DNA of 64,000 nucleotides from Thiobacillus sp. Lineage in GTDB: Bacteria > Pseudomonadota > Gammaproteobacteria > Burkholderiales > Thiobacillaceae. Shown here one piece after another: positions 47,407-63,790 of this stretch (position 1 is the stretch's first letter; each line of letters opens with the position of its first letter). Below the pieces are notes generated by a model that made no database searches, was not told the origin of the DNA, and saw nothing but the letters and a program-made list of their open reading frames with translations. A program made the position numbers and the translations under genes. The stretch is taken from assembly GCA_019459055.1 (NCBI GenBank), contig JAIBEI010000050.1, forward strand, positions 1 through 64,000. The letters are read 5' to 3'.

Positions 47407-47631
47407 ATGAATACCCATGCAACCCAAGATCCCTACCCCGTTTTCCGCGAAGCCTTACCTGACCAACCCATGCTGGGTTGAGGCGATCTTCCCCAGTCTG
47501 GCAAGCTTGATGCGAGCACATACAATCTCGTCATCCTCGACAAATACCCGACAGCCCTGTACGCCGAAGTCGGCCCATTCCTGACCCCATGCTCACCCTC
47601 GCCAAAAACCTCTACGACTACCACGAACTGA
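47407..47631 (+). pseudogene. Broken small gene in front of wzm
   Basis: A reading frame starts at ATG 47407 (MNTHATQDPYPVFREALPD), meets an in-frame TGA at 47479-47481, and continues open with protein-like sequence (SGKLDASTYNLVILDKYPT, ALYAEVGPFLTP) until TGA at 47629. The last 43 bases overlap wzm. The sequence after the TGA does not look random, so this is probably the decayed remnant of a gene lost when the ABC transporter was acquired. The parent family is not recognised. Confidence 0.45.
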
Positions 47632-48407
47632 TGGCCACGCTCGCGTGGAAGAACGTCACCCTGCGCTACAAGCAAGCTTACCTGGGCATCGCCTGGGCCA
47701 TCCTCAAGCCCATCACGCTCATGCTGATCTTCACCCTGGTGAAGAGCTTCGTCGGCATCGAAAGCGGCGAGATTCCCTATCCCATCCTGGTTTTCGCTGC
47801 GCTCATGCCGTGGACCTTCTTCCAGGAATCCACCTCCGATGGGGTAACCAGCGTCGTCGGCAACACCGCGCTGATCAAGAAGATCTATTTCCCGCGGGAA
47901 ATCTTTCCAATCACCTCGGTCCTCACCAAGCTGGTCGAACTGGGCATCAACTTCTTCATCCTGGCGGGGTTGATGGTGTGGTACCAGATGATGCCCAGCA
48001 TCTATATCCTGTGGGTTCCCCTCATCATCGCCTACACCATCCTGGCGGCGCTCACCATCGCCTTCGCCGGTGCGGCCATCAATGTTTATTACCGCGACGT
48101 GGGTGCTGCCCTGCCAGTACTGCTGTCCCTGCTGATGTACGCCTCGCCGGTTATCTACCCGCTGCAACTGGTCAAGGACAAACTGCTGGTGCAACAGGCT
48201 GCAGGCGAGTGGTCCGATATGCTCTATACCCTGTATACCCTCAACCCCCTGGCCGGCATCATTGACGCTTTTCAGAACGTCGTTCTGCGGGGGGCGCCAC
48301 CGGACCTGGACGCCATGATCCCCGGCGCCATCCTGGTCGCCATCCTGCTGCCGCTGAGCTACCTATACTTCAAGCGTGCCGAAAGTTATTTCGCCGACGT
48401 CATCTAA
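47589..48407 (+). CDS. wzm: ABC-2 type polysaccharide exporter permease (Wzm)
   Basis: 272-residue inner-membrane protein with six predicted helices and the family pattern WKNVTLRYKQAYLGIAWAIL. It also has NTALIKKIYFPREIFP and INVYYRDVGAALPVLL. It pairs with the ATPase 12 bases downstream to export a lipid-linked glycan (O-antigen or capsule-like). No ribosome site is obvious before the ATG. Confidence 0.92.
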   Translation: MLTLAKNLYDYHELMATLAWKNVTLRYKQAYLGIAWAILKPITLMLIFTLVKSFVGIESGEIPYPILVFAALMPWTFFQESTSDGVTSVVGNTALIKKIYFPREIFPITSVLTKLVELGINFFILAGLMVWYQMMPSIYILWVPLIIAYTILAALTIAFAGAAINVYYRDVGAALPVLLSLLMYASPVIYPLQLVKDKLLVQQAAGEWSDMLYTLYTLNPLAGIIDAFQNVVLRGAPPDLDAMIPGAILVAILLPLSYLYFKRAESYFADVI

Positions 48408-48419
48408 CCCATAAAAATC

Positions 48420-49661
48420 ATGCCCGTCATCGAAGTCAGCCACCTAACCAAGGAATACCGCCTCGGCGCCCTCCAAGGACTCAAGCAGACCCTGATCAAC
48501 ACAGGCGCACGCCTCATGGGCAAACATCTACCGGAGCGCCCCCTTTTCAAGGCCCTGGACGACGTCAGCTTCTCCATCGAGCAGGGCGAGGTGGTCGGTA
48601 TCATCGGCCACAACGGCGCCGGCAAATCCACCCTGCTGAAAATGCTGGCGAAAATCAGCACTCCCACCCGCGGCTCGGTCATGACCAAAGGGCGGATCTC
48701 CCCGCTCATCGAGGTGGGCGCAGGCTTCGTGCCCGACTTCACCGGGCGCGAAAACGTCTATCTCAATGGCGCCATCCTCGGCATGAAGCGCCAGGAAATC
48801 GACCAGAAATTCGACGAGATCGTCGACTTTGCCGAGATGGCGGAATTCATCGACACCCCGGTCAAGCGCTACAGCTCGGGGATGCAGGTCAAGCTGGCGT
48901 TTGCTGTGGCCACGAGCGTTCAATCCGAGATCCTGATCGTGGACGAGGTGCTGGCGGTGGGCGACCTGGCGTTTCAGCGCAAGTGCTTTGACCGGATGGA
49001 GGATGTCATCAAAGGACAGGGAAGAACCATTCTTCTCGTCAGCCACAACATCCGGCAAGTCGAGCGCATGTGCAACCGGGTCATCCTGATGGATCACGGC
49101 AAGGTGGCAGCCGATGGCCCCGTCGCCGAAGTCTGCGAACTCTTCTACCAGCAAAGCAACACCAAGATTCAGGCCCAGGCCCAGCACGCTGCCACGGCGA
49201 AGGTATCGGGGTCTGGTGAGGTCACGATCGACAGCATCGATGTGCTCGACAATGCCGGTCATCCCGTGAACGAAATCGAGTCGGGCGAGCGGCTGCGCGT
49301 CCGGATCCGGTTCACGCTTCTGCACGATCTTGAGGGGATCGAAATCGTTGCAGGAACCCACCGCACCGATTTCATTTACATCAGCTCGGCCAGCACGCGT
49401 GACGTCCTGCCCAATGCGGCCTTCAGCCGCGGGTCACACGAGGTCGAATACATCGTGCCCACTTTTCCGCTCGCTGCAGGCACCTATTCTGTACGCCTGG
49501 TCTTCCTGGATAGAAACTGGCGCTTCCTGTTCAATGGCGAGTCGTTGAAAACCTTCACCGTAAAAGCCAAGCGGCTGGAAACGATGAACAGTCAGTGGAA
49601 AACCGTCGATCTGCCCTCTGAAATGCGGGTCGATGGCACCTTGTATGCCCTGCCACAATAA
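48420..49661 (+). CDS. wzt: Polysaccharide ABC transporter ATPase with carbohydrate-binding C-terminus (Wzt)
   Basis: 413-residue protein. The ABC domain has Walker A G63-HNGAGKS-T71, signature YSSGMQVKLAF and Walker B ILIVDEVLAVGD. Residues 260-410 form a Wzt_C-type beta sandwich (GEVTIDSIDVLDNAGHPVNE), which in other systems reads the glycan's end group before export. That implies that the exported polymer here carries a terminal modification, such as the methyl group added by one of the methyltransferases in this cluster (inference). Confidence 0.93.
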   Translation: MPVIEVSHLTKEYRLGALQGLKQTLINTGARLMGKHLPERPLFKALDDVSFSIEQGEVVGIIGHNGAGKSTLLKMLAKISTPTRGSVMTKGRISPLIEVGAGFVPDFTGRENVYLNGAILGMKRQEIDQKFDEIVDFAEMAEFIDTPVKRYSSGMQVKLAFAVATSVQSEILIVDEVLAVGDLAFQRKCFDRMEDVIKGQGRTILLVSHNIRQVERMCNRVILMDHGKVAADGPVAEVCELFYQQSNTKIQAQAQHAATAKVSGSGEVTIDSIDVLDNAGHPVNEIESGERLRVRIRFTLLHDLEGIEIVAGTHRTDFIYISSASTRDVLPNAAFSRGSHEVEYIVPTFPLAAGTYSVRLVFLDRNWRFLFNGESLKTFTVKAKRLETMNSQWKTVDLPSEMRVDGTLYALPQ

Positions 49662-49806: not shown

Positions 49807-50988
49807 ATGCCTGAAGCATTAGAGATCACCCTGACACAAGAAACCAGCGAGGACGGTTTGCGTCGCACCGTGCGACTCCACAAAACCGGCACCACAGGGG
49901 ATGGGGATCAGACGTTTTTTTTCGATCTGGTCGGTGACACGTCATCCCCTGCACCACAGGTTTTGGATGGATTTGTATTCGGCATCATCTTTATCGCCAT
50001 GCAACTGGGATGCCCCGTGAAAGTGCATGGCCGGCTAAGCCGCAGCGCCATCTTCAATCTTGCGGAGTTTCAGAGTGCCTGGGCATGCTGGCGCCCCGAA
50101 AAATATCGGCGTGTAGACATCCTTCCGGACGAAATCGTCGACCTGCCGGCAATTGAGCACCCACCCCGTGCCATCTCGGCCTTTTCCGGCGGCGTCGACG
50201 GCAGCTTCACCGCCATCCGCCATGCGTGCAAGCATATGGGCAATGCCTCCTATCCGCTGACGGATGTAATGCTGGTGCATGGTTTCGACGTGCGGCTCGG
50301 AAAGCCCGAGGCCTTCAAACTCTTGCTGAAGCGCATTCGCCCCCTCGTGGACGAACTCGGTCTGGGCATGAAACTGATCCGCACCAATCTGAAGGAAGCC
50401 TCGGGGCAGGAATGGGAAGACAGCTTCGGCGCCCAACTTGCGGCATGCCTGCACAATTATTCCCATGATTACAACTACGCCCTGATGGGGAGCGGCGAGC
50501 CTTACTCCAACATCTTGTACCCTTGGGGCTCCACACCCGCCACGGACCATCTGATGTCCAGCGATCAAATGCGGCTCGTTCTGGACGGTGCCGCTTATTC
50601 GAGAACCGAGAAACTGGCGGAAATTGTGAAACTACCGACCACTCAGCGCACACTCAAGGTGTGCTGGGAGGGTGTCGATCGCGAGCGAAATTGCGGCCAA
50701 TGCGAAAAATGCCTACGCACAAAATTGAATTTTCTGGCGGTTGGCATAAGCAACCCCGCCTGTTTCGATGACGGACTCGACCTTGATCGAATCGCACACA
50801 TTCCTTTGCGCAACAAAGCCCAGCTCGCCGAGCTGAAGAGCATCCTTCAGTACGCGAAGGCACATTATAGGTCCGGTGATTGGGTGGACAAGCTGAAACA
50901 ACGAATCGACGCCCATGGCCGCCAACCTGACCTAATGGCACGCTTGGCGCGCAAGCTTGGTTTTCGCTCCGTCAGAAAAAATCCTTGA
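49807..50988 (+). CDS. PP-loop ATP-pyrophosphatase-like protein of the glycan cluster
   Basis: 393-residue protein. Residues 127-133 (SGGVDGS) form a PP-loop like that in QueC, ThiI and sugar amidotransferases; Gly132 replaces the usual Ser. A Cys set C286-C296-C299-C302 (RERNCGQCEKCLRT) forms a likely zinc or Fe-S site. About 110 N-terminal residues are of unknown fold. The ATG has GAGGAG seven bases upstream. Such enzymes adenylate a carbonyl or carboxylate and then add N or S; here a sugar is a plausible substrate. The exact reaction is unknown. Confidence 0.65.
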   Translation: MPEALEITLTQETSEDGLRRTVRLHKTGTTGDGDQTFFFDLVGDTSSPAPQVLDGFVFGIIFIAMQLGCPVKVHGRLSRSAIFNLAEFQSAWACWRPEKYRRVDILPDEIVDLPAIEHPPRAISAFSGGVDGSFTAIRHACKHMGNASYPLTDVMLVHGFDVRLGKPEAFKLLLKRIRPLVDELGLGMKLIRTNLKEASGQEWEDSFGAQLAACLHNYSHDYNYALMGSGEPYSNILYPWGSTPATDHLMSSDQMRLVLDGAAYSRTEKLAEIVKLPTTQRTLKVCWEGVDRERNCGQCEKCLRTKLNFLAVGISNPACFDDGLDLDRIAHIPLRNKAQLAELKSILQYAKAHYRSGDWVDKLKQRIDAHGRQPDLMARLARKLGFRSVRKNP

Positions 50989-51052
50989 ACGACAACCTTA
51001 TGAGACACCCATTGGATCTGCATATCCAAACAATCAAGCAGGGAAGTTCCCG

Positions 51053-52087
51053 ATGAACGCAACCCTTGACGCGCTACGCGCGCGCCTCCATCAGACGCTC
51101 GATCCCCTGATCCCGCCTGGCTCATGCTGTGCGCTCATCGACTTCCCGCATCACGGTAACGTCGGTGACAGTGCCATCTGGCTGGGTGAGATGGCTTACC
51201 TGAAAAGCCGCAATTGCAAGGTGGCCTACACGTGCGATGCCGGCAACTACAATGCAGAAGCGATGCGTTCTGCCATTGGCGATGGCATCCTCCTGATTAC
51301 TGGCGGAGGCAATTTCGGCGATCTGTACGCCATTCATCAAAATCTTCGGGAACGCGTAATTCGCGAGTTCCCTGACAATCGGATCATCCAGTTCCCGCAG
51401 TCCATTTACTTCGCCAATGGCAGCAATCTCGCCAGGTCGCAAGCCATCCTGTCTCCGCACAAGGACTTTCACTTCGTCGTTCGCGATACGGTCAGCCTCC
51501 GCCTTGCACGAGAGCACTACGACAACCCGAGCTATCTCTGTCCTGACATGGCGATGATGCTCGATTTGAGGCCCTTGCGATCGCAGCGAAAAACATCGGA
51601 CGTGGTCGTCCTGTCCAGGGTGGATGAAGAGAAGGCCGCGCACCTTACGGCCGGTGCGGACGCGCAGCTGAACAGTGTCGTGACGGACTGGCTCGACGAA
51701 CCCGAACCGAAGCATCAGTGGCTCTACGACTGGTCACATCGGCGCCTTGGCTGGGGAAGCTCCAGAATCCCGCCGTTCATTTTGAACAAGCTGGCGCTGA
51801 CGGCTGCAAATGCCATGGCAAGGCAACGCCTCGCACGCGGACTCAGTCTTCTGGGTCAAGGCAATGTGGTGGTCACGGATCGGCTCCATGCCATCATTCT
51901 GAGCTGGCTGGGCGGAACCCCGGTTTTCTTCGTCGACAACAACTACAACAAGCTGTCGAACTTCATCGACACATGGCTGAAAGACAGCACGGGGCTTGTG
52001 CGCTGCGCCTCTTTTGAAGATGCCCTGGAGCAAGCCCGGACGGAATACTGGCCAGCCAGCCCTGCCATGACATCGAACCCGGTCTGA
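51053..52087 (+). CDS. Polysaccharide pyruvyl transferase family protein
   Basis: 344-residue protein of the GT-B-like pyruvyltransferase family (PF04230 type). HHGNVGDSAIWLGEM, ILLITGGGNFGDLYAIHQ and VVVTDRLHAIILSWL are the core motifs. It would add a ketal pyruvate to a sugar, giving the polymer negative charge. The start at MNATLDA was chosen over a 32-codon extension. It overlaps nothing and is 10 bases before the next GT. Confidence 0.9.
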   Translation: MNATLDALRARLHQTLDPLIPPGSCCALIDFPHHGNVGDSAIWLGEMAYLKSRNCKVAYTCDAGNYNAEAMRSAIGDGILLITGGGNFGDLYAIHQNLRERVIREFPDNRIIQFPQSIYFANGSNLARSQAILSPHKDFHFVVRDTVSLRLAREHYDNPSYLCPDMAMMLDLRPLRSQRKTSDVVVLSRVDEEKAAHLTAGADAQLNSVVTDWLDEPEPKHQWLYDWSHRRLGWGSSRIPPFILNKLALTAANAMARQRLARGLSLLGQGNVVVTDRLHAIILSWLGGTPVFFVDNNYNKLSNFIDTWLKDSTGLVRCASFEDALEQARTEYWPASPAMTSNPV

Positions 52088-52097
52088 ATTTCACACC

Positions 52098-53135
52098 ATG
52101 CCGCAGGACACCCGCCCCCAACAAGCGCCTTTGATCAGCGTGCTGATGCCGGCCTACAACTGCGAGGCGTACGTGCTCGAAGCCGTTTCCAGCATGTTGT
52201 CGCAGTCTTTTGCGGATTTCGAATTGCTGGTGATTGATGACGGTTCCACCGATTCGACCAGAAGACTGCTCGAATCTGTGCATGACCCACGGCTTCGCCT
52301 GGTCTCGAATGACCACAACATTGGCCTGATCGGCACCCTCAATCGCGGCCTTGAGCTGGCGTCGGGGCGCTACGTCGCGCGCATGGATGCCGACGACATT
52401 TCTGCGCCGGAGCGGCTGGAAAAACAGGTGCAATTCCTCGAGGCGCATCCCGATGTTCACGTCCTCGGCACCATGGTCAATTTGATCAACGAGCAGGGCA
52501 AGGTGTTCGGCGCGATCGCTGGCTACCCGAAGGATGCGGACGAAATTCACCGGTATCTCTTGCGCGAATGCTGCCTCATCCATCCTTCGGTGATGTTCCG
52601 CAAGGACGCGGTACTCGCGGTCGATGGCTATTCCGCCAGTGCCCGGCATGCCGAGGATTACGATCTTTGGCTGCGCCTGTCAGATCATCACAAAATTGCG
52701 AACCTGCCCGACAAACTCGTTTCGTACCGGATGCACAGGAATCAGGTTTCCATCCGGAATCTGGCCACCCAGCATCAGGTCGCCCAGCACTGCCGCATGG
52801 AAGCATTGAAGCGGCGATCCACCCTGGGAGAAGACGTGAGCGAGGCCGTGCGGATAGTGTATGCCGGCCCGTGGGGACGACTCCGTGCGGCCGAGTGCAC
52901 CTTGGGCAGGGATTACCTCAACTGGGCGCGCATCTATCGCTGGATGAAGCATCCGCACATGGCCTTGCGCCTTGCGCTCAAAGCCGTTCTGCACAGTCCG
53001 TTTTCAGCCACAGCTTGGAACATGCTCATGATTTGTAGCGTTGAATCCATTGTGCCGCCGTCATGGCGGCAAGCCGCGAAATGGTACGCCCGACGTTTGT
53101 CCAGGCTTTTGAAGTCGGGAAGCCGTTTCTCATGA
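52098..53135 (+). CDS. GT2-family glycosyltransferase
   Basis: 345-residue GT-A enzyme: ISVLMPAYNCEAYVLEAVSS, VIDDGSTDSTRR, RMDADDISAPERL and HAEDYDLWLRL, with a long basic C-terminal tail (KWYARRLSRLLKSGS) that probably associates with the membrane. Its stop overlaps the next start (ATGA). Confidence 0.9.
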   Translation: MPQDTRPQQAPLISVLMPAYNCEAYVLEAVSSMLSQSFADFELLVIDDGSTDSTRRLLESVHDPRLRLVSNDHNIGLIGTLNRGLELASGRYVARMDADDISAPERLEKQVQFLEAHPDVHVLGTMVNLINEQGKVFGAIAGYPKDADEIHRYLLRECCLIHPSVMFRKDAVLAVDGYSASARHAEDYDLWLRLSDHHKIANLPDKLVSYRMHRNQVSIRNLATQHQVAQHCRMEALKRRSTLGEDVSEAVRIVYAGPWGRLRAAECTLGRDYLNWARIYRWMKHPHMALRLALKAVLHSPFSATAWNMLMICSVESIVPPSWRQAAKWYARRLSRLLKSGSRFS

Positions 53136-54190
53136 TGACGGTTGGTTTTCTGCCCTGGTGGCCCGCCAATCCTTATCAGATTCTGCTCAAGCGGGAATTG
53201 AACAAACTGGGGGTGCGCGTCATCGGCAATCCACCGCTCAATCTCCTGAAAATCCTGTTGCGGCGGGACGGCCTCGACGTCGTGCACGTCCATTGGCCGC
53301 ATGGCCTGTATCTCGGAAAAGTCTGGACGTTCCCGTACGTCGTGCTGGTGCTGGTGCTCTATCGCCTGATCAAGAACAACATCGTGTGGACGGTTCACGA
53401 ACTGGACTTCTACGAGACCCGGTTTACGGTGCTGGACCGCATCATCCGCGCAGTGCTGATGAAGACCTGCAGGGCCTTGATCGTCCATGGCGAGCATTCG
53501 ATCCGTGAAATCAAGCAGCGCTATGGATTCAGCCGGGATATGGTGGTGGCACACCATCCATCCTATATTGGCTACTACGCAGACACCCTGTCGGCGCAGG
53601 AGGCGCGCAACAAACTGGGCATTGGCGCTGGCAGCAGGGTCTACCTGTTCTTCGGATATATCAAACCCTACAAGGGCGTGGAGGAATTGATCGAGGCTTT
53701 CGGCGCCATTCAAAACCCGAACCTTGTCCTGCTTATTGCGGGAAAACCCTTTAACGACGAAACCGAAGCCGGGATCAAGGCTTTGGCCGCCAGAAATCCG
53801 CGCGTCAAGACGGAAATGCGTTACATCGCCGACGACGATATCCAGCTCTTCATGCGCGCCGCCGATATCGTGGTGTTTCCTTTTCGGCGAACGCAGACAA
53901 GCGGGTCGATCATGCTGGCGCTCAGTTATGGAAAACCGGTGATCGCGCCGGCCATCGCCACGATTCCGGAATATGTGGATGAAACCATGGGACTGCTGTT
54001 CGACCCGTCACAACCCGACAGCTTGCGCGCCACCCTGGAGAAATCGGCGTCGATGGACCTTGGCAGGCTGGGCGACGCCGCGGCACAACGCGCCAGCTCC
54101 TTCAGTTGGGCCGACATGGCAAGCCGCCACATGCGCGTATATAAACAGGTCATACATTCCGGTGATGCGGCGATGCAGGATGGCGACTGA
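53132..54190 (+). CDS. GT4-family glycosyltransferase
   Basis: 352-residue GT-B enzyme. The N-terminal half has DVVHVHWPHGLYLGK and a membrane-like stretch VVLVLVLYRLIKNN. The C-terminal half has the EX7E-type nucleotide site region FGYIKPYKGVEELIEAF and QTSGSIMLALSYGKPVIAP. The MMTVGFLPWW start overlaps the previous stop by four bases; the 23-codon upstream extension was rejected. Confidence 0.9.
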   Translation: MMTVGFLPWWPANPYQILLKRELNKLGVRVIGNPPLNLLKILLRRDGLDVVHVHWPHGLYLGKVWTFPYVVLVLVLYRLIKNNIVWTVHELDFYETRFTVLDRIIRAVLMKTCRALIVHGEHSIREIKQRYGFSRDMVVAHHPSYIGYYADTLSAQEARNKLGIGAGSRVYLFFGYIKPYKGVEELIEAFGAIQNPNLVLLIAGKPFNDETEAGIKALAARNPRVKTEMRYIADDDIQLFMRAADIVVFPFRRTQTSGSIMLALSYGKPVIAPAIATIPEYVDETMGLLFDPSQPDSLRATLEKSASMDLGRLGDAAAQRASSFSWADMASRHMRVYKQVIHSGDAAMQDGD

Positions 54191-54207
54191 CATGACGCAG
54201 ATGGACC

Positions 54208-55008
54208 ATGCTTGATCCCGTTACCCGCACGCTACACCGCAGCGCCGGCCAGCATGGTCCGGTCATGCTCATGTATCACGCGGTGCTGCCCGGCAAGGAC
54301 ACCCCCGCCTGGCCATGGGCCGTCTCCATGCGGCGTTTCCGCGACCAGCTCGACTTTCTGGTGGCCGAAGGCTATGCCACCCCCACCATGGCCGAACTGG
54401 CCGCCACACCCGCAAACCGATGGACGGGGCGGGTTGCCGTCATCACGTTCGACGACGGCTACGTCGACAATCTCGCCGCGTGCGAGGAATTGCTGAAGCG
54501 TGGCATGCGTGCCAGCTGGTTCCTCGTGTCCGGCTCGATTGGGAGCGAGCCTGCCTGGCCAGCCGATGGCCGTCCTGACGGCCGCCTGCTCAACGCAGGT
54601 GAACTGCGCGAGATGCGGGCAGCGGGCATGGAAATCGGCTCACATACGGTCAACCATGTCCGGCTGACCGAAACGGACGACGCGCGCCTGCAACAGGAGC
54701 TGAACGGCTCCCGGGCCGCGCTGGAAGATGTCCTGGGCGCAGCCGTCACCAGCTTTGCCTACCCTTACGGTGCGTCCGATGAACGTTGCGTCGATGCGGT
54801 GAAACAGGCCGGGTATGTCGCCGCCTGCACCACCCACACGGGCTGGGCGCTACGCGATAACGATCCGTATCGATTGCGGCGCCTGACCGTATTCAACCAC
54901 GACACACTCGGCCGCTTCGCGCGCAAACTTGCCTTTGCCAGCCATGCTGTCGGCTGGGCAGATTTGTTGCGTTACGCGCAGCATCGTGTGCGCAACCGGT
55001 CCCGGTAA
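54208..55008 (+). CDS. Polysaccharide deacetylase (CE4/NodB family)
   Basis: 266-residue protein with the NodB motifs: VITFDDGYVDN (Asp82/83), the metal site SHTVNHVRL and SFAYPYG. It would remove acetyl groups from N-acetylated sugars. It lacks a signal peptide, so the site of action (cytoplasmic intermediate or exported by another route) is open. Short gap of 17 bases after the GT4. Confidence 0.9.
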   Translation: MLDPVTRTLHRSAGQHGPVMLMYHAVLPGKDTPAWPWAVSMRRFRDQLDFLVAEGYATPTMAELAATPANRWTGRVAVITFDDGYVDNLAACEELLKRGMRASWFLVSGSIGSEPAWPADGRPDGRLLNAGELREMRAAGMEIGSHTVNHVRLTETDDARLQQELNGSRAALEDVLGAAVTSFAYPYGASDERCVDAVKQAGYVAACTTHTGWALRDNDPYRLRRLTVFNHDTLGRFARKLAFASHAVGWADLLRYAQHRVRNRSR

Positions 55009-55065
55009 CACGGTGATGGGCCGCGGACGGAAGAACAGTATTCTTTTTCACAGGAGCCTGTGCAG

Positions 55066-55962
55066 ATGAAAACCAGAGCGATTGAACCAGGGCAGGTGCG
55101 TGCGCTGATGTCTGGCATCCAGATCGGCAGTCTGGAATCCAAAGCCATGGTGGACAGCTACATCGACCAGAATCTGGTCCGGTTTACCAGGACCCTGCAG
55201 GCGATTCCTCCGGCATCCGGGCATGGCCGATTGCTGGATGTGGCCGGACTGGCAAACCTGATTCCGTGCTACCAGCAGATGCTCGGTTATGAGCGCGTAT
55301 CCATCACATCGGGCAGCCAGGATTCGCCTTTCGTTCCTGCCGGCCTTGAAGACCCCCTTCAGAAGCTTGAAAACGTGGAAATCCGCTACTTCAATGTCGA
55401 GTTTGATCCCTTCCCGTTTCCCGACCAAAGCTTCGATACCATAGTCTGTTGCGAAGTGATTGAACACATGACGGTGGACCCCATGGCTCTTATGTCCGAA
55501 ATCAATCGCGTATGCAAACCCGGCGGATTCCTGGTCATGACAACGCCCAACATTACCGGATGGAAGAATCTTGCGCGCATGGTCGCCGGCCGGCACCCGC
55601 AGGGGTTCAATTCCTTCAGCGGCATTGGCAACGATCGCCACAATCGCGAATACACACCCGGGGAGATGGGTGCCATGTTCGACGACGCGGGATTTGATAT
55701 TGTCGAACAGACGACCTTCAGCCAGTCCGGCCTCGAACCGGGTCATCGCTGGCTGAAGTGGTGCATCAAGCCCTTGTCCCGGTTCTGGACGCTGCCCGGC
55801 GAAAATGAAAGAGGTGACTTTATCCTCGCCGTGGGGCGAAAGGCCAGCGGGGTACGAAATCGACTGCCTGACTGGCTTTATGGCCAGTTTGCCGAGGACA
55901 GGGCGCTGCTCGCAAGCACCGGGCAATACACGGAACCGTCAATAGCGCGAAGCACAGGATGA
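55066..55962 (+). CDS. Class I SAM-dependent methyltransferase
   Basis: 298-residue protein with a Methyltransf_11-type fold: RLLDVAGLANLIP (motif I variant, normally GxGxG), FDTIVCCEVIEHM and CKPGGFLVMTTPN. AGGAG lies nine bases before the ATG used; the GTG two codons upstream is too near. Motif I lacks the usual glycines (DVAGLAN), so SAM binding is not certain. Possible O-methylation of a sugar or lipid carrier. Confidence 0.78.
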   Translation: MKTRAIEPGQVRALMSGIQIGSLESKAMVDSYIDQNLVRFTRTLQAIPPASGHGRLLDVAGLANLIPCYQQMLGYERVSITSGSQDSPFVPAGLEDPLQKLENVEIRYFNVEFDPFPFPDQSFDTIVCCEVIEHMTVDPMALMSEINRVCKPGGFLVMTTPNITGWKNLARMVAGRHPQGFNSFSGIGNDRHNREYTPGEMGAMFDDAGFDIVEQTTFSQSGLEPGHRWLKWCIKPLSRFWTLPGENERGDFILAVGRKASGVRNRLPDWLYGQFAEDRALLASTGQYTEPSIARSTG

Positions 55963-56048
55963 AACCAGCGGCATGCTGCAACTGACGGCAGAAAATACCG
56001 TTCTGCGCCCCGCCCGACTCACGCCAAGCCCAGCCCCTGACGAATCCA

Positions 56049-56996
56049 ATGAAGGCACCTGAAATCTCGGTCATCATGCCGTGTTACAACGCGATGGCGC
56101 ATTTGCCGGCGAGCGTGGGCAGCGTGCTGGCGCAGACGTTTGCCGACTGGGAATTGATCGCGGTCGACGACGGATCGAGCGACGCCACACTGAACTGGCT
56201 GCAGGCACAACCCGACCCGCGCCTTCGAATCCTCTCGCAGACCAACCAGGGCGTGAGTGCGTCCCGCAATGCAGGCTTGGCGCAGGCACGCGGTATTTAT
56301 GTGGCGTTTCTGGACGCGGACGACACCTGGACTGCAGATTATCTGGAAAAAATGCGGGCCATGCTGCATGCCCACCCCGATGCGGTGCTGGCCTATTGCG
56401 GCTGGCAGAACATTGGGCTGCCGGGCGGTCGCGGCGAGCCGTTTGTGCCGCCGGATTACGAGGGCGCCGACAAGGCCGAAACGCTGTTTTCCGGCTGCCG
56501 CTGGCCAATTCATGCCGCGCTGGTCAAGCGCCAGGCCGTGCTGGCCGCTGGTGGCTTTGATCCAGCGCTGAAGAATGCCGAGGATTACGCACTATGGCTG
56601 CGGGTGGCAACGGCCGCGCCGATCGTCCGGGTGCCGGAGGTCCTGGCGTTCTATCACTTTCATGGTGGTGCGCAAGCATCCGGCAACCGCGCCCGCGCCG
56701 CGCTGCAGCACTTGCAGGCGCAACAGGCCTACCTGGCCACCCATCCGGCGTTGTGCGGCGTAATCAGCCCTTCACGCATCCGCCAGTTGACCTTGGGAGA
56801 ATTACTCAAACGCGGCTACGCCTGCTACTGGCAACGCGACCTGACCGCCGCACGGCAAATCTTTCGCGCCGTAATGAAACAAGGCTATGGCACACTTGCC
56901 GACTGGAAGTACATGCTGCCCGCCTGGCTGCCCGAATCCTGGCACCGCTGGTTGATCGGGCGGCGAGACCGGGATCCCCCTACAACCGATGGATAA
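56049..56996 (+). CDS. GT2-family glycosyltransferase
   Basis: 315-residue GT-A enzyme: ISVIMPCYNAMAHLPASVGS, AVDDGSSDATLNW, FLDADDTWTADYLE and YCGWQNIGLPGG. It resembles the GT2 at 46336-47298 in the middle region and C-terminus (ACYWQRDLTAARQIFRAVMK versus the same block there), suggesting a common origin by duplication within the cluster. Confidence 0.9.
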   Translation: MKAPEISVIMPCYNAMAHLPASVGSVLAQTFADWELIAVDDGSSDATLNWLQAQPDPRLRILSQTNQGVSASRNAGLAQARGIYVAFLDADDTWTADYLEKMRAMLHAHPDAVLAYCGWQNIGLPGGRGEPFVPPDYEGADKAETLFSGCRWPIHAALVKRQAVLAAGGFDPALKNAEDYALWLRVATAAPIVRVPEVLAFYHFHGGAQASGNRARAALQHLQAQQAYLATHPALCGVISPSRIRQLTLGELLKRGYACYWQRDLTAARQIFRAVMKQGYGTLADWKYMLPAWLPESWHRWLIGRRDRDPPTTDG

Positions 56997-57094
56997 GCTT
57001 GACCCGGCCCTGAGCCCAATCGGCATGCCGTGCCGCAACGCTGCGTTCTACGATGCTTGGTGCAGCGCACGCAACCGCATCTGAGTTTTTGACC

Positions 57095-58015
57095 ATGCCC
57101 CTGCTCACTTTTGCCTTTTGCACCTACAACCGCGCTGACCGGCTGGAAAGGCTGGTGGCCGCGATGCGCGCGCAAGCCTGTCCGGTCCCGTTCGAGATCC
57201 TGGCGATCAACAACAACAGCACTGACAACACTGCGATGACGCTGGCGCAGCTGGCACAACAACCCGGCCCTACGTTGCGCTGGGTGACCGAGCCGGTTCA
57301 GGGTATCGTCGCTGCGCGCAACCGCGGCATCGCCGAGGCGATGGACAGCGACATCCTGGTCTATATCGACGACGACGAAATCCCCCTGCCAGGGCTGATC
57401 GAGGCCGCCGCAGACGCGATCCTGAACGAAGGCGCCGAATGCGCGGGCGGGCGCGTGGAAATGGACTTCACCACAATCCCGCGTCCAGCCTGGCTCGAAG
57501 ACGACCTGCTGGGCTTTCTGGCAGCCGTCGACCATGGCCCGGACGCCTTCTGGATTCAGGACACCCGCACGCCGATCTGGACGGCCAATGTCGCCTACGA
57601 CATGCGGCTGTTCAGGAATGATCCGGCATTGCGTTTCGACAAGCGCTTCGACCGGGTGGGCAATGTGGTGGGCGGCGGCTCGGATGCCGTCATGTTCCGC
57701 ACGCTGCTGGAGCGCAAGGCCCGCATCCGTTACCGTCCGGAAATGGCCGTGCTGCATGACGTGGAAGCTTGGCGGCTGGCGCGCAGCTATTTCCTCAAAC
57801 TGCATTACCGCGCCGGCCTTCGCCATGGCAAACACAAATTGCCGACGTATCCAAAAACCATACTTGGCGTGCCGCCTTTCCTTGTCACCCAGTTTGTTCG
57901 ACAAACCGCCAAAGCCATCGGCATGCAGCTCACCGGTCGGCCCGGCGCCCTGCGGCAGGGGATGAATGCAACCCACGCGCTCGGCACCTTGATCGGTTAC
58001 CGCTCTCGGCCGTGA
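57095..58015 (+). CDS. GT2-family glycosyltransferase
   Basis: 306-residue protein beginning MPLLTFAFCTYNRADRLERL, with NNNSTDNT, EPVQGIVAARNRGIAEA and the acidic motif YIDDDEIPLPGL. The C-terminus contains a conserved-looking RVGNVVGGGSDAVMFRTLLE. The next gene starts inside its stop (GTGA), so the two are coupled. The start at residue 15 of the longest frame is preferred. Confidence 0.88.
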   Translation: MPLLTFAFCTYNRADRLERLVAAMRAQACPVPFEILAINNNSTDNTAMTLAQLAQQPGPTLRWVTEPVQGIVAARNRGIAEAMDSDILVYIDDDEIPLPGLIEAAADAILNEGAECAGGRVEMDFTTIPRPAWLEDDLLGFLAAVDHGPDAFWIQDTRTPIWTANVAYDMRLFRNDPALRFDKRFDRVGNVVGGGSDAVMFRTLLERKARIRYRPEMAVLHDVEAWRLARSYFLKLHYRAGLRHGKHKLPTYPKTILGVPPFLVTQFVRQTAKAIGMQLTGRPGALRQGMNATHALGTLIGYRSRP

Positions 58016-61000
58016 CCGCGCTCACCATCCTCATCTGCACCCACAATCGGGCCGATCTGCTGGAACGGGTGTTGGCTTCGCTTAATGCGGCAAAGCGCCC
58101 TGTCATGCCGGTACAGATCCTGGTGGCCGCCAATGCCTGCACCGACGACACCGTCGCCCGGATGGGGACCTATCAGGCACAGCAGGATACTCAAGGCTGG
58201 CTGCCGTTGCGGCTGATCGAAGTCCCCACCCCCGGCAAGTCGCATGCGCTCAATCGCGCCATTCCCGAAATCGACACCGAACTCACCGCGTTTGTCGATG
58301 ACGATCACCGGGTCGATGAAAGCTATCTGGTCGCCATCGAACAGGCGGCGCAAACCTGGCCGGATGCCGGACTGTATTGCGGCCGCATCCTGCCCGACTG
58401 GGACGGCAGCGAACCCGAATGGGTGCATGACAATGGGCCCTACCGGATTTATCCGCTCCCCATTCCACGCTACGACCAGGCAGACCAATCCAAGACGATC
58501 ACCGCCGAAGAAGGGCCCATTCCCGGCGGCGGCAATCTGGTGGTCCGCCGTCATGTATTTGAACTGGCCGGCGAGTTCTCCACCGAACTGGGGCCGCATG
58601 GACATGACCTGGGCGGCGGCGAGGACAGCGAATATGTGCTGCGCGCCATGAATCGCGGCGTGCGATGCCAATACACCCCGGACATGGTGCAGCACCATTA
58701 CGTCGACAGCGAGCGACTCCGGCTCGGCTATCTGCTGAAAAAAAGCTATCAGCGCACCCGCTCCACTTCACGTATTCACGGCAACGGCCGGGTGCCGCTT
58801 TTCATGTGGCGCAAGCTTGCTGAATATGGTTTTCACAGCCTGTTCAGCCTGTCATGGGCCAGGCGCCGCTTCTACTGGATGCGGACAGCCGCTGCATTGG
58901 GCGAGGTCCAGGGTCGCCGCGAATCAGGCTTCCGTGGACGGGGGCTCGCCCTCCCCCCGGACCGCGGCATGCTGGGCGTTGAGGCCCTGGCACTGCTCAC
59001 CGGTGCCAGCGGCCTCATCGCCTGGATTGTCGCCGGCGACGCGCGCTGGGCCGGCATCCTGCCCGCACTAGGCGTCGCAGGCGTCGGGGCGGCAGCGTTG
59101 CTCGCCAAATCGCTGCTCGACTTTTCACAGACCGGGCCGCGCATGCGCGAGGAAGTACTCACCCATTACCGGCGCTACACCCTGTTTGCACTGGCACGCC
59201 TGACCGCCTGGGCGTTCGCGCTGATGCTGTTCACCGGCGGTGCGGGGGTGTTGCTCTATTTCATGCTCAACACCGTGCTCGGTGCGCCGTGGTCGGCGGG
59301 CCTGGCCTTCATTGCCGCCATCCTGGGCGTGCTGGGCGCGTTCTCGCTGCAATTCATCCGCAAGCTGCGCTTCAACCCCGGCCTGCTGGTGGCATCGATG
59401 CACTACCGCATGAGCCGGCTATACAGACTCTGGCAGTGGATGACCCCGGCCTTCATCACGGCCCTGCAATGGGGGGCCATGGGCCTGGTCGGACTGCTGC
59501 TCATGGCCGCCAGCTGGCAGTTGTCGAAGGAGGGGCGTATCGGCGACCTGATGGCGCTGTGGGCGGCCATGCTGTTTGTTGCAGGAACGATCGCCTGGGC
59601 AGGCTGGCAGCCGCAGGCACGCGCGCCGCGCAGACAGCCGGTGCGCACAGCCGATGCGCCGCCCAACATTCTGATGATCGGCTCCGACACGCTGCGTGCC
59701 GACCGGCTGGGCGCGCTGGGCTACCATCGCGCGCTGACGCCGAACATCGATGCGCTGGCCGCAAACGGTGCCCTGTTTGCCAACTGCTACGTGCCATGCG
59801 CGCGTACCGCTCCCAGCCTGGTCTCGATGCTGACCGGCACCTGGCCGCACACCCATGGCATCCGCGACAACTTCGTCAATGACGAGAGCACGCGGCTGAA
59901 GGTGGATGCCCTGCCCACGCTGCTGAAACAGGGGGGCTATCGCACCGCTGCGCTGTCGGACTGGTGCGGTGGCGACATGGGCAAGTTTTCCTTCGGTTTT
60001 GATTACACCGACCTGCCGGAAGACCAATGGAACCTGAAGTACCTGATTCGCCAGGGCCCCAAGGACCTGCGCCTGTACCTGTCCCTGTTCACCCACAACC
60101 GGCTGGGACGGCTGCTGCTGCCCGAACTGTACTATCTGGGCGGGGTACCGCTGACGCAGCCTATGGGCAAGCGTGCGCGGCGGCTGGTGTCGCGCCTGGC
60201 AGAAAACCCGCAGCCGTTTTTTCTGAACGTGTTCTATTCCACCACCCACCCGCCGTTTGCATCCGAATGGCCGTGGTACACGCGCTTTGCCGACCCGGGC
60301 TATGCGGGTGAGTCCAAGTTCGCCATGGCGCGGCTCACCGACCCGTTCGACATCATCCGCCGCCAGGGCGCGCCCAAGGCAGAATTCGATCTCGATCAGA
60401 TCATCGATCTGTACGACGGCTGCGTGGCGGAGTTCGACGATGAAGTGGGCAAGATGCTGGCCCATCTTGAAACCTGCGGCCTGGCCGGCAACACCATCGT
60501 CGTCGTTTATTCCGATCACGGCATGGAATTTTTCGAGCACGACACCTGGGGCCAGGGCAACTCTGCCGTCGGCGAAGCCAGCCCGCGCATTCCGCTGGTG
60601 ATCCGCGATCCGCGCCTGGCGCCTAAGGGGAAAATAGACCAGGTGGTACGCTCGATCGACCTGATGCCCACCCTGCTCGAGCTCGCCGGCCAGCCATCGG
60701 CCACGGCAATGGACGGGATATCGCTTGCGAAATGCCTGACGGGGAACAATGCCTGCCCCGAACTCGACGCCTTTAACGAAACCGGAATCTGGATCGCTGA
60801 CATTCCCGGCCTGCCCGACGATCACCTGCGCTACCCGGATTTACTGGAACTCATGGAAGCGCCCGACCGTACCAGCGGCACCTTGGCGATCAAGCCCGAA
60901 TACTACGAGGCCATCCTCGTCGCCAAAGACCGCATGATCCGGCGCGGCCGCTGGAAACTGGTGTATCAACCGCTGGAAACAGGCCACGTGCTCCAGTTGT

Positions 61001-61185
61001 TCGATCTGGCAAGCGACCCGACCTGCATGCACAACGTCCTCGCCCAACAAGCCGAAATCGCCCAATCCCTGTGGCAGCAGCTCGGCGAGTGGATGAAACG
61101 GGAAGAACGTGTGTCCACGCTTGGCGGCCGAATGCATCTATATACAGAAGATGCCCAGAATATCCGTCGTCATCCCCACCCATAA
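58012..61185 (+). CDS. GT2-membrane-sulfatase-like trifunctional fusion
   Basis: 1,057-residue protein from a GTG coupled to the previous stop. Residues 1-300: GT2 domain (LTILICTHNRADLLERV, FVDDDHRVDES). Residues 320-545: at least six membrane helices. Residues 553-1000: an alkaline-phosphatase-superfamily domain related to sulfatases (SDTLRADRLG near 558, D835-H-G metal site). At the sulfatase catalytic position the sequence is C596-A-R-T599-A-P-S602; the formylglycine Cys of C-x-P-S-R is a Thr and the Arg is Leu. Thr is the nucleophile in phosphoethanolamine transferases, so a phospho- rather than sulfo-substrate is likely. Fusion confirmed by one open frame with no stop. Confidence 0.85.
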   Translation: MTALTILICTHNRADLLERVLASLNAAKRPVMPVQILVAANACTDDTVARMGTYQAQQDTQGWLPLRLIEVPTPGKSHALNRAIPEIDTELTAFVDDDHRVDESYLVAIEQAAQTWPDAGLYCGRILPDWDGSEPEWVHDNGPYRIYPLPIPRYDQADQSKTITAEEGPIPGGGNLVVRRHVFELAGEFSTELGPHGHDLGGGEDSEYVLRAMNRGVRCQYTPDMVQHHYVDSERLRLGYLLKKSYQRTRSTSRIHGNGRVPLFMWRKLAEYGFHSLFSLSWARRRFYWMRTAAALGEVQGRRESGFRGRGLALPPDRGMLGVEALALLTGASGLIAWIVAGDARWAGILPALGVAGVGAAALLAKSLLDFSQTGPRMREEVLTHYRRYTLFALARLTAWAFALMLFTGGAGVLLYFMLNTVLGAPWSAGLAFIAAILGVLGAFSLQFIRKLRFNPGLLVASMHYRMSRLYRLWQWMTPAFITALQWGAMGLVGLLLMAASWQLSKEGRIGDLMALWAAMLFVAGTIAWAGWQPQARAPRRQPVRTADAPPNILMIGSDTLRADRLGALGYHRALTPNIDALAANGALFANCYVPCARTAPSLVSMLTGTWPHTHGIRDNFVNDESTRLKVDALPTLLKQGGYRTAALSDWCGGDMGKFSFGFDYTDLPEDQWNLKYLIRQGPKDLRLYLSLFTHNRLGRLLLPELYYLGGVPLTQPMGKRARRLVSRLAENPQPFFLNVFYSTTHPPFASEWPWYTRFADPGYAGESKFAMARLTDPFDIIRRQGAPKAEFDLDQIIDLYDGCVAEFDDEVGKMLAHLETCGLAGNTIVVVYSDHGMEFFEHDTWGQGNSAVGEASPRIPLVIRDPRLAPKGKIDQVVRSIDLMPTLLELAGQPSATAMDGISLAKCLTGNNACPELDAFNETGIWIADIPGLPDDHLRYPDLLELMEAPDRTSGTLAIKPEYYEAILVAKDRMIRRGRWKLVYQPLETGHVLQLFDLASDPTCMHNVLAQQAEIAQSLWQQLGEWMKREERVSTLGGRMHLYTEDAQNIRRHPHP

Positions 61186-62179
61186 TCGACCAGGGTTGCT
61201 TCGCGAGGCCGTAGCCAGCATACAGAATCAGACATTCCCTGACTGGGAGATCGTGATTGTGGACGACGGCTCGCAGCCGCCGGTAGATGCGGAATCCCTG
61301 CGGAAGGATTTTGGTTCGCGGATTCAGGTGGTGCGGAATGAGCAGCCCCTGAAGCAGCCGTATGCACGGAATCAAGGCGTTCAGGCGGCGACCGGGGACG
61401 TGGTCGTTCATCTTGACGATGACGACCTCCTTGCGCCGGAAGCATTGGAAATGAGTCTGGCCACCCTTGAAAGCGATCCCTCGCTTGAACTCGTCTATCT
61501 TGGCGTCCAGGGCTTCGGCAAAAGGGCGGCCCATTTTGATGAATCGCAGAAGCAGGCGATGCAGGCCGTACTCAGCCGGGCCAAAGGGATCGAAACGCAA
61601 AGTGGCGTCATACGATTCGGGCCCGAGCTGTTCGCGGCACTGCTCTACTCCGTCCCAATGGCGTTTCAACGATCCATCGAGTATCGCAAGACCTGGAACA
61701 AGGTAAGCGCGCTGCGCCGGCGCGCCTATATGCGTGACCCGGATATCGCTGACGAAGAGCAGGCGATGCGCAGGCTGCGGCCACCGCTGCGGGAATCCGA
61801 ATGGGCCCTATATGCCGCCGCATGCAGCAATACCGCCCTGCTTTTGGAACCCGTGTATCTGCAGCGATGCGAAACGCAAGGTTATTTCTCGGTGGCCTCG
61901 CAAAGAGAGCGGGCAGTGCTGTCCAGGATTGATATCAAGGCGCACCTTCTTGAAGCCACAAATGGAATTGCCGACCTCGGTCATTGGGGAGGCGAGATCC
62001 GAAGGAGTCTGGGTTCGGCGTACTTTGACCAGTCCTACTTCTATTTTCAAAATGGCCGGCGTTTTCCCGCCTACCGGGCACTGTTCAATGCGCTGAAAAC
62101 CCACCCAGCCGCATCGTATCTGAAGTTCGGCGTGCGAATGCTGTTGCCACGCGGCAGCGTCCCGGATCAGGTTTCGTGA
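61151..62179 (+). CDS. GT2-family glycosyltransferase
   Basis: 342-residue GT-A enzyme: RISVVIPTHNRPGLLREAV, VDDGSQPPVDAES, HLDDDDLLAPEALEM. The C-terminal half (about 200 residues) is unusually long and has no obvious motif. It overlaps the end of the fusion gene by 35 bases. The start MPRISVV was chosen over a 14-codon longer frame. Confidence 0.88.
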   Translation: MPRISVVIPTHNRPGLLREAVASIQNQTFPDWEIVIVDDGSQPPVDAESLRKDFGSRIQVVRNEQPLKQPYARNQGVQAATGDVVVHLDDDDLLAPEALEMSLATLESDPSLELVYLGVQGFGKRAAHFDESQKQAMQAVLSRAKGIETQSGVIRFGPELFAALLYSVPMAFQRSIEYRKTWNKVSALRRRAYMRDPDIADEEQAMRRLRPPLRESEWALYAAACSNTALLLEPVYLQRCETQGYFSVASQRERAVLSRIDIKAHLLEATNGIADLGHWGGEIRRSLGSAYFDQSYFYFQNGRRFPAYRALFNALKTHPAASYLKFGVRMLLPRGSVPDQVS

Positions 62180-63013: not shown

Positions 63014-63790
63014 TCAGTCCGGGCAGAATCGGCAGTACGGATTGGTCGGTGAGCCGATTGGGGGTTCGGCGATGGTCTCTACCGGTGCAGGCGGAACGGT
63101 GGTTGGACTTGCTGCAGACTCAACCGAACTCGGGGTGGGGGTAGGCGGCTCTTCCGGTTTTGCAGCCTCGGCTTCGGCGGCCGGCGTTGGTTCGATGGAC
63201 TCTGGATACGGCAGCTTGCCGCCCAATTCCGTGTAGCGACGCTGCAGGCTCTTTGTGTCTGGATTGTGCCGCAAGCCATCCGTGATGATTTCAAGCGCTT
63301 TGGCAGGCTGTTTAATCCCGGAATAAAAATCAGCCAACATACTGTATGCCCTGGGTTGGCGTGGATTAAGCTCGATCGCCTTGTTCAAATGTGTGATTGC
63401 CTGAGCTGGCTGGTTCTTTAACGAAAACACCTTCCCTAGATTTGAATGGACGTCCGGCATCAGGCTGTAAGAGGGCGCCGCATGGCTGACCATATACTCA
63501 AAATTGGTTTGTGCGTTATTGAGATTGAAACTTTTACCTTGCTTGCTTCGAGCGCGGTGGTACCGGTTTAAAAAGTTGACCCCGGCACAGTAATGATGGG
63601 TATGCCCATAATCCTTCCCCAAAGCAGACATCCAATACTTGTATTCCGGACTGCCCTCATTGAATCTGGCCTTGCAAAAAGGAGGCAAGCTCGCCATCTC
63701 TGTGTCGGTCGGCACCCAGGGTTCCAATGCGTGACTTGATATGGAGACCAATGCCAGCGCAAGGAAAAGTAGCGGTTGAGATAGCTTCAT
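63014..63790 (-). CDS. Exported TPR-repeat protein
   Basis: 258-residue protein with signal peptide MKLSQPLLFLALALVSISSHA, then a Cys-containing N-terminal region (PPFCKARFNEGSPEYKYWM, HHYCAGVNFLNRYHRA). Two or more TPR units (SNLGKVFSLKNQPAQAITHL, SMLADFYSGIKQPAKALEII) and a Pro/Glu-rich C-terminus ending CRFCPD follow. Similar TPR proteins occur next to exopolysaccharide clusters; the function is unknown. It lies four bases downstream of the truncated GT4, on the same strand. Confidence 0.75.
   Translation of the reverse strand: MKLSQPLLFLALALVSISSHALEPWVPTDTEMASLPPFCKARFNEGSPEYKYWMSALGKDYGHTHHYCAGVNFLNRYHRARSKQGKSFNLNNAQTNFEYMVSHAAPSYSLMPDVHSNLGKVFSLKNQPAQAITHLNKAIELNPRQPRAYSMLADFYSGIKQPAKALEIITDGLRHNPDTKSLQRRYTELGGKLPYPESIEPTPAAEAEAAKPEEPPTPTPSSVESAASPTTVPPAPVETIAEPPIGSPTNPYCRFCPD

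Follow-up and report, generated by a model that had tools for sequence, protein, structure and literature searches.

Architecture of the fused gene

The window analyzed here is a 64,000-nucleotide stretch of Thiobacillus sp. DNA (assembly GCA_019459055.1, contig JAIBEI010000050.1, positions 1 to 64,000), and our subject is one gene within a polysaccharide cluster of this window. The gene is a single open frame that encodes a protein of 1057 amino acids (aa) and joins a family 2 glycosyltransferase (GT2), a membrane domain, and a domain of the alkaline phosphatase (AP) superfamily with a sulfatase fold (Table 1). It begins with GTG at 58012, ends with the stop codon at 61183-61185, and contains no internal stop; its first 4 bases (GTGA) include the stop codon of the upstream GT2 gene. 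Two Pfam profiles placed the N-terminal part in the GT2 family with scores above the cutoffs (Glycos_transf_2 [PF00535], residues 5-148, E 9.8e-12; Glyco_tranf_2_3 [PF13641], residues 4-230, E 1.6e-12), and the acidic motifs D96-D97-D98 and E204-D205 were invariant in 40/40 aligned proteins. The C-terminal part matched Sulfatase (PF00884; residues 551-893; E 6.3e-48). An earlier reading of the sequence (here, the original prediction) had described one frame with a GT2 domain, at least six membrane helices, and an AP-superfamily domain, and the Pfam matches, the helix count, and an AlphaFold2 model bear out this description.

Table 1. Features of the fused gene and its surroundings in the window
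Feature	Positions	Strand	Basis
Fused gene: GT2, six predicted membrane helices, AP-superfamily (sulfatase-fold) domain	58012..61185	+	Open frame, Pfam, homologues
GT2 module, residues 1-305	58012..58926	+	Pfam; acidic motifs
Membrane domain, residues 318-531, six predicted helices as three hairpins	58963..59604	+	Hydropathy count, AlphaFold2 model
PF00884 domain core, residues 551-893	59662..60690	+	Pfam; predicted fold extends to ~residue 1040
D559, predicted metal ligand, aligned with conserved Asp of sulfatases	59686..59688	+	Alignments
T599, nucleophile position, T-A-P-S-L instead of C/S-x-P-S-R	59806..59808	+	Alignments
H746, aligned with conserved His of sulfatases, 25/25	60247..60249	+	Alignments
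D835-H836, predicted metal ligands, invariant	60514..60519	+	Alignments
Upstream GT2 gene, 4-base (GTGA) overlap with fused gene	57053..58015	+	Open frame, Pfam
Downstream GT2 gene, probably starting at the ATG at 61151	61109..62179	+	Open frame, Pfam
ABC-2 permease and ATPase with Wzt C-terminal domain (polysaccharide exporter of the cluster)	47589..49661	+	Profile matches
Rest of cluster: polysaccharide pyruvyl transferase, GT2, GT4, polysaccharide deacetylase, methyltransferase, GT2	50957..56996	+	Pfam

Conservation and spread of the fusion

Relatives were collected by a scan of genome contigs, which gave 127 relatives and from which 80 loci were kept, and from a further set of loci. A single frame encodes all three parts in 67 distinct homologues, which together with the window protein (n = 68) formed 20 groups at 70% identity; the carriers include Thiobacillus, Nitrotoga, Thauera, Aromatoleum, Sulfuriferula, and others. 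The same fusion thus exists elsewhere, and these 67 sequences rule out a chimeric contig as well as the frameshift in the read data that, according to the original prediction, might split the GT and sulfatase parts. When 369 genomes were drawn evenly from the class (own genome counted), the AP core was detected at E 1e-40 in 21 of them, which we read from their frames and start codons as 8 fused, 12 unfused, and 1 unclear (G206). A draw of 398 genomes of the phylum contained the core at this threshold in one genome, the window's own, and no other member.

Three further loci are recorded here. In Candidatus Nitrotoga sp. 1052 (L071:8922-13280), the fused frame continues without a stop to 1453 aa, ~400 aa beyond its relatives. 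The AP core of a contig labeled Rhizobium sp. (L036; JAIBEL010000033.1) was near-identical in the AP tree to that of Thiobacillus thioparus (L037), and the contig is perhaps a mislabeled metagenome bin. A Leptospira borgpetersenii plasmid (L172:5077-7530) encodes an 817-aa protein with a hydrophobic N-terminal part and an AP domain; it has the R-T-x-P site of the fused-protein family and, as judged by eye, also its ETGIW and YPDxLxL motifs. A fifth plasmid hit (L175) yielded no usable frame.

Active site of the sulfatase-fold domain

Two alignments were used to assess the active site, i.e., the 68 fused proteins and a set of 25 proteins that reaches remote unfused members. T599, D559, D835, and H836 were invariant in 68/68 fused proteins. 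In the remote-member set, T599, D559, R598, D650, W651, H746, D835, H836, E842, W846, Q848, and N850 were conserved in 25/25, as was R687. The original prediction had placed T599-A-P-S602-L at the catalytic position, and T599 does occupy the nucleophile position throughout both sets. The alternative that Cys596 is the nucleophile fails and was rejected: position 596 of the remote-member set is Cys in 12/25 versus L, I, or V in 13/25 (8, 4, and 1, respectively), while T599 is found in 25/25. One fused relative (L058) has T-A-P-C instead of T-A-P-S; its translation contains an ambiguous residue, and a sequencing error may explain the difference.

The formylglycine sulfatase signature C/S-x-P-x-R is absent from the family, as Thr takes the place of Cys or Ser in both sets and position 603 is L, I, or M in 25/25 of the remote-member set, with no Arg. 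Alignments to 5g2v, 7p24, 7oz8, and 6hhm matched the Arg of C-x-P-S-R to L603 and the sulfatase active-site Lys, His, and second Lys to D650, C652, and Q848, respectively, so that neither the Lys/His pair nor the second Lys is retained; position 652 is A in 13/25 and S in 1/25 of the remote-member set. The roles of these three residues are those of choline sulfatase, and we carried their numbering over to the other sulfatases by inference. The choline sulfatase site is described as holding its metal on Asp14, Asp296, and His297, together with Cys54, Lys102, His104, Asn75, and a His201-Lys309 pair (PMC5870055). According to the SulfAtlas report (PMC5066984), the Arg is 99% conserved in sulfatases, Thr occurs in 30/59 Pfam seed sequences, and Thr would not yield formylglycine.

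An ordinary formylglycine sulfatase was rejected on these residues (Thr at the nucleophile position, no Arg at 603, and changed basic residues), and with Thr in place of the formylglycine residue, the protein is very unlikely to remove sulfate by the known route. The residues that remain correspond to the set of LtaS and EptA, i.e., a Thr nucleophile with an Asp or Glu and an Asp-His pair as metal ligands, represented here by T599, D559, D835, and H836, with the metal itself predicted. In LtaS, the metal and nucleophile residues are given as Glu255, Thr300, Asp475, and His476 (PMC7576196), and the metal residues of the fused protein match this set. Since the sulfatase-type basic residues are changed whereas the nucleophile, the metal residues, and the His are kept, the pattern suggests altered chemistry in a live site. 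Judged by its residues, the fused protein is not a normal sulfatase but a putative Thr enzyme in a sulfatase scaffold, and the database name "sulfatase" for such proteins is very probably wrong here.

Predicted fold and membrane topology

The full-length AlphaFold2 model, computed from 40 aligned proteins, had a predicted template modeling score (pTM) of 0.76; the AP domain modeled alone had a pTM of 0.85 and a mean predicted local distance difference test score of 79. The best structural match of the AP-domain model was 6hr5 (Z 34.1; 356 residues; 2.6 Å root mean square deviation), followed by 4uph (Z 32.7) and 2w8s (Z 32.3), and the top matches were sulfatases and phosphonate monoester hydrolases. 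Together with the PF00884 match, this comparison predicts a sulfatase fold. Ranks 1 to 25 span only Z 34.1 to 30.6; therefore, no subgroup can be singled out. No LtaS or EptA entry was among the 50 structures listed in this search.

In the full-length model, the membrane helices comprise residues 318-340, 344-369, 380-423, 429-454, 479-506, and 510-531. A simple hydropathy count between the domains gave six helices in 68/68 fused proteins at a threshold of 1.0 and in 67/68, 66/68, and 63/68 at the looser thresholds of 0.8, 0.6, and 0.4, respectively, with seven in the remainder. GT2 enzymes use cytoplasmic sugar nucleotides, and therefore the N terminus should lie inside; with six helices, the chain would return, so that the AP domain is also predicted to be cytoplasmic. 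The distribution of charge points in the same direction in 68/68 proteins, with a mean of 15.5 Lys+Arg residues in the loops on the GT/AP side versus 2.5 on the opposite side, counted in windows that are longer on the GT/AP side.

As a topology control, we used a 656-aa PF00884 membrane protein encoded elsewhere in the genome that is LtaS-like by eye. Its Lys+Arg counts from the N terminus were 4, 3, 4, 1, 4, and 0 (the first count being 2 if counted from the first Met, and a sixth, weak segment being set aside), which fits an inside start and an outside end. The unfused relatives, whose start codons we picked, begin 20 to 51 residues before the conserved loop that follows helix 2.

Exchange of glycosyltransferase modules

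The GT modules have been exchanged repeatedly on a conserved core of membrane and AP domains. In one relative (L045), identity to the window protein was 90% for the AP domain and 42% for the GT; along the chain, it jumped sharply from ~0.36 to 0.88 near residues 300-310. In another (L057), it rose gradually without a sharp switch; the identity profile covers these two of five sequences. A third type of N-terminal part, unmatched by the GT of the window, was found on L060, L065, L066, L070, and L076, and GT2-type models match the one on L060. When four labels (GT type A, B, C, or none) were mapped onto a tree of 91 AP cores, 17 changes were required, with a minimum of 3, and the well-supported branches alone forced at least 8 changes for type A and at least 7 for type B; the tree was built by a quick method, several long branches are of unsure place, and the GT labels of the draw loci L106-L109 and L112 were assigned by eye.

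A separate gene 37 to 58% identical to the fused GT was present in 7 of 17 loci (L093, L124, L125, L130, L131, L135, and L137) and adjoins the AP gene in L093 and L131; some unfused loci thus have the GT as a gene of its own. These 17 loci consist of 16 fetched loci and L093, and one of them (L136) is itself fused; the neighbor genes were labeled with profiles built from the same loci, and gene calls were poor in L132 and L134.

Sulfotransferase genes and the surrounding cluster

The AP gene is associated with sulfotransferase genes. Among the 21 class genomes with the AP core, 15 have a Sulfotransfer_3 gene (PF13469) within 15 kb of the AP gene, at distances of 24 bases to 6.6 kb (G000, G080, G111, G120, G140, G147, G181, G206, G228, G296, G301, G318, G368, G386, and G396). 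In 20 control genomes without the AP gene, hand-picked from near the top of the match list rather than at random and each centered on one polysaccharide-export gene (PF02563), such a gene lay within 15 kb of the export gene in 2 (G214 and G243; Fisher's test, 9e-5). The export gene and the GT-AP gene may occupy different places in the cluster, and since the controls were hand-picked and differently centered, this result indicates association and not function. The counts were made from contig coordinates, and short contigs shorten the 15-kb range in both groups. Genome-wide, PF13469 was present in 20/21 genomes with the AP gene versus 194/348 of the others.

Within the window, the fused gene stands between two GT2 genes and downstream of a polysaccharide exporter (Table 1). 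Between the exporter and the pyruvyl transferase, the gene at 49807-50988 matched no Pfam family above the cutoff and had a weak DUF6395 match only. A tetratricopeptide repeat (TPR) protein is encoded downstream on the reverse strand (63014-63790); its family, judged by eye, was present in 67/96 clustered neighbor loci, making it a possible constant partner of the cluster. Beyond the window, there are a sulfotransferase gene, an amidotransferase gene matching the XrtA/PEP-CTERM model TIGR03108 below its cutoff, and a ligase gene above the cutoff of the exosortase-A model TIGR03097.

Similar loci have been listed before. The gene Tmz1t_3253 appears as "sulfatase [wbbL]", unstudied, in the exopolysaccharide locus of Thauera aminoaromatica MZ1T, in the same cluster as a deacetylase gene (tmz1t_3249) that restored flocculation to an MZ1T mutant (PMC4784049), and the MZ1T polymer has been described as possibly carrying esterified nonsugar substituents. 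The exopolysaccharide locus of Rubrivivax gelatinosus likewise lists an unstudied "sulfatase (wbbL)", RGS1_10427 (PMC3684757). As described, both loci have neighbors similar to those of the fused gene (asparagine synthase, GT2, and deacetylase), and a fused homologue is present in T. aminoaromatica S2 (L096). Judging from the neighbors and from this homologue, Tmz1t_3253 and RGS1_10427 probably belong to the same family as the fused gene. The original prediction had suggested that the fusion would be a new way to couple polymerization and decoration, a claim that needs some care. No description of a GT-AP (GT-sulfatase) fusion was found among the literature matches listed (titles and abstract starts), but the family itself has probably already been listed under the name "sulfatase (wbbL)". 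What is new is a known superfamily in a new architecture with a predicted inverted topology.

Proposed function and alternatives

We propose, with even chances of being right, that the fused protein is a transferase of polysaccharide assembly whose two active sites both lie on the cytoplasmic side of the inner membrane and whose AP domain passes an anionic group to a sugar. The N-terminal GT2 would add a sugar to a lipid-linked chain, and the three membrane hairpins would keep the sulfatase-fold domain beside that chain. Thr599, with one divalent metal held by D559, D835, and H836, would receive the anionic group from a donor, forming a covalent Thr ester, and the AP domain would then hand the Thr-bound group on to the sugar, thus acting as a transferase and not as a sulfatase. 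Transfer instead of hydrolysis, as well as the group, the donor, and the acceptor, are inferred. As to the group, sulfate is narrowly the most likely, a tentative choice, with a phosphoryl group, doubtful in itself, close behind. We consider transfer more likely than hydrolysis, and a sulfuryl group narrowly more likely than a phosphoryl group, because of the predicted shared membrane face, the residues of the site, the proteins Agl30 and Agl31, and the Thr genes of Haladaptatus.

For Agl30 (VNG1056C) and Agl31 (VNG1057C) of Halobacterium salinarum, gene deletion and expression in another species are reported to show that these AP-superfamily proteins add sulfate in vivo to the sugars of a lipid-linked glycan (PMC11980604). 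Compared by description only, they resemble the fused protein in their sulfatase-like fold, in their location in a glycan-assembly cluster, and in sulfating a lipid-linked oligosaccharide, one being membrane bound and the other cytosolic; they differ in being archaeal and in having, as described, no fused GT, and Agl30 has one predicted helix, not six. Follow-up work on AP-superfamily sulfotransferases was not found among the papers listed in our literature search. A Haladaptatus plasmid (L174:4998-7784) has a pair of neighboring AP-superfamily genes in a glycan cluster, flanked by GT4 and epimerase genes, in an arrangement reminiscent of Agl30/Agl31. The nucleophile position is Thr in both, an N-terminal membrane segment is not obvious in either, and they may be related to Agl30/Agl31; of the five relatives compared, three have Thr and two have Cys.

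The original prediction was that the protein may build a glycan and attach a phosphoryl group, or hydrolyze a phosphodiester, instead of removing sulfate. Part of this stands, in that the known route of sulfate removal is very unlikely and building plus decorating fits the data. As stated, it was not otherwise supported: sulfatases and phosphonate monoester hydrolases are the best-ranked folds, and the AP domain is predicted on the side of the membrane opposite to that of LtaS and EptA. For these two reasons, the analogy to LtaS/EptA is limited to the active-site residues and does not extend to the architecture, and orthology to these enzymes is unsupported by the predicted topology. Sulfuryl transfer, which the original prediction did not consider, has a precedent in the AP superfamily (Agl30/Agl31) and a signal in the neighboring sulfotransferase genes.

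The nearest known proteins share only parts of this organization. LtaS, EptA, and YejM have the Thr nucleophile, the D/E-T-D-H metal set (LtaS), and a membrane domain before the AP domain; however, their soluble domain is extracytoplasmic and follows five helices, whereas the fused protein has six predicted helices, an AP domain predicted inside, and sulfatases and phosphonate monoester hydrolases as best-ranked folds. Formylglycine sulfatases (SulfAtlas S1) and phosphonate monoester hydrolases share the fold (Z ~30-34), the Asp and Asp-His residues, and His746 with the fused protein, which differs from these enzymes in lacking Cys/Ser-x-P-S-R, in its changed Lys/His pair and second Lys, in being membrane bound, and in its fusion to a GT2.

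Several points weigh against the proposed transferase. The topology of the fused protein rests on prediction and is weakly founded: per residue, the Lys+Arg ratio is ~0.18 versus 0.08, as the windows on the GT/AP side are longer; the opposite-side loops are short, and because helix ends fall within their windows, their charge is lowered and the result is biased toward a cytoplasmic AP domain; and the last opposite-side loop is not poor in Lys+Arg (1.38 in 10 residues). In the unfused set, the helix count was five in 9/12 and six in 3/12, and the charge orientation was clear in 7/12 and unclear in 5/12 (L116, L117, L120, L121, and L123). Regarding sulfation, no Sulfotransfer_3 gene was found within 15 kb of the AP gene in 6/21 genomes (G129, G150, G336, G355, G369, and G373), and a second export gene in G370 has a sulfotransferase at 8.3 kb, which, if counted, gives 3/20 controls (Fisher's test, 4e-4; second export genes were checked among the matches listed). 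Sulfation of the glycan may already be the work of the neighboring Sulfotransfer_3 enzymes, in which case the AP domain would be unneeded for this purpose. The published evidence for Agl30/Agl31 comes from in vivo work, in which loss of both agl30 and agl31 left some sulfation (PMC11980604). Finally, Thr in the AP superfamily has otherwise been linked to phosphoryl chemistry (LtaS, EptA, MCR-1, and YejM).

Of the alternatives, hydrolysis survives best, although we consider it unlikely. Acting at the cytoplasmic face in editing or release, the AP domain would cleave a phosphodiester, phosphate, or sulfate, either from the lipid-linked glycan as it grows or from the carrier. The best-ranked folds are those of hydrolases, and an AP part that stays constant while the GT changes fits a sugar-independent target such as the lipid carrier; however, the basic residues of the sulfatase sulfate site are lost at the aligned positions, and the gene context is biosynthetic.

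A less probable arrangement is a periplasmic phosphotransferase of the LtaS/EptA/BcsG type, in which an AP domain outside the cytoplasmic membrane would move phosphoethanolamine or phosphoglycerol from a phospholipid to the exported polymer. BcsG belongs to the AP superfamily and acts on the periplasmic side. In Escherichia coli, the GT2 synthase BcsA and the phosphoethanolamine transferase BcsG are reported to cooperate (PMC11379886 and PMC11470070), providing a precedent for a GT2 synthase working with an AP-superfamily decorating enzyme, there as separate proteins. The Thr and the D/E-T-DH set shared with LtaS fit this arrangement, whereas six helices after a GT in the cytoplasm would place the AP domain there as well and, subject to the window effects mentioned above, the charge bias agrees.

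That the AP domain is dead and serves the GT as a scaffold binding a glycan or a partner is improbable: several sulfatase catalytic residues have no counterpart at the aligned positions, and AP-fold proteins of debated activity have been described (YejM), but the nucleophile, the metal ligands, and the polar residues R598, R687, E842, Q848, and N850 are invariant in 25/25, remote members included. An ordinary formylglycine sulfatase, as the Pfam match (E 6e-48) might suggest, or an artefact from a frameshift or chimeric contig can be set aside as extremely improbable given T599 in 68/68 and 25/25, L/I/M and not Arg at 603, and the one-frame fusion in 67 distinct sequences.

If the proposal is right, the fused architecture would be a conserved model of how anionic decoration is coupled to chain growth, and its AP domain is predicted to lie on an unexpected side of the membrane. 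In the most specific form of the proposal, which is speculative, the protein would be a bacterial sulfotransferase with a sulfatase fold that acts on the cytoplasmic face and is fused to exchangeable GT modules, each new sugar being sulfated by the same protein that adds it. If this is true, the family would represent a membrane-integral AP-superfamily enzyme of inverted topology and an unrecognized second sulfation route in the exopolysaccharides of Thiobacillus, Nitrotoga, Thauera, and their relatives. One study reports sulfated glycosaminoglycan-like polymers in all of the granular sludges examined and few matching sulfotransferases; the presence of the fused family in Thauera, Nitrotoga, and Thiobacillus bears on this question.

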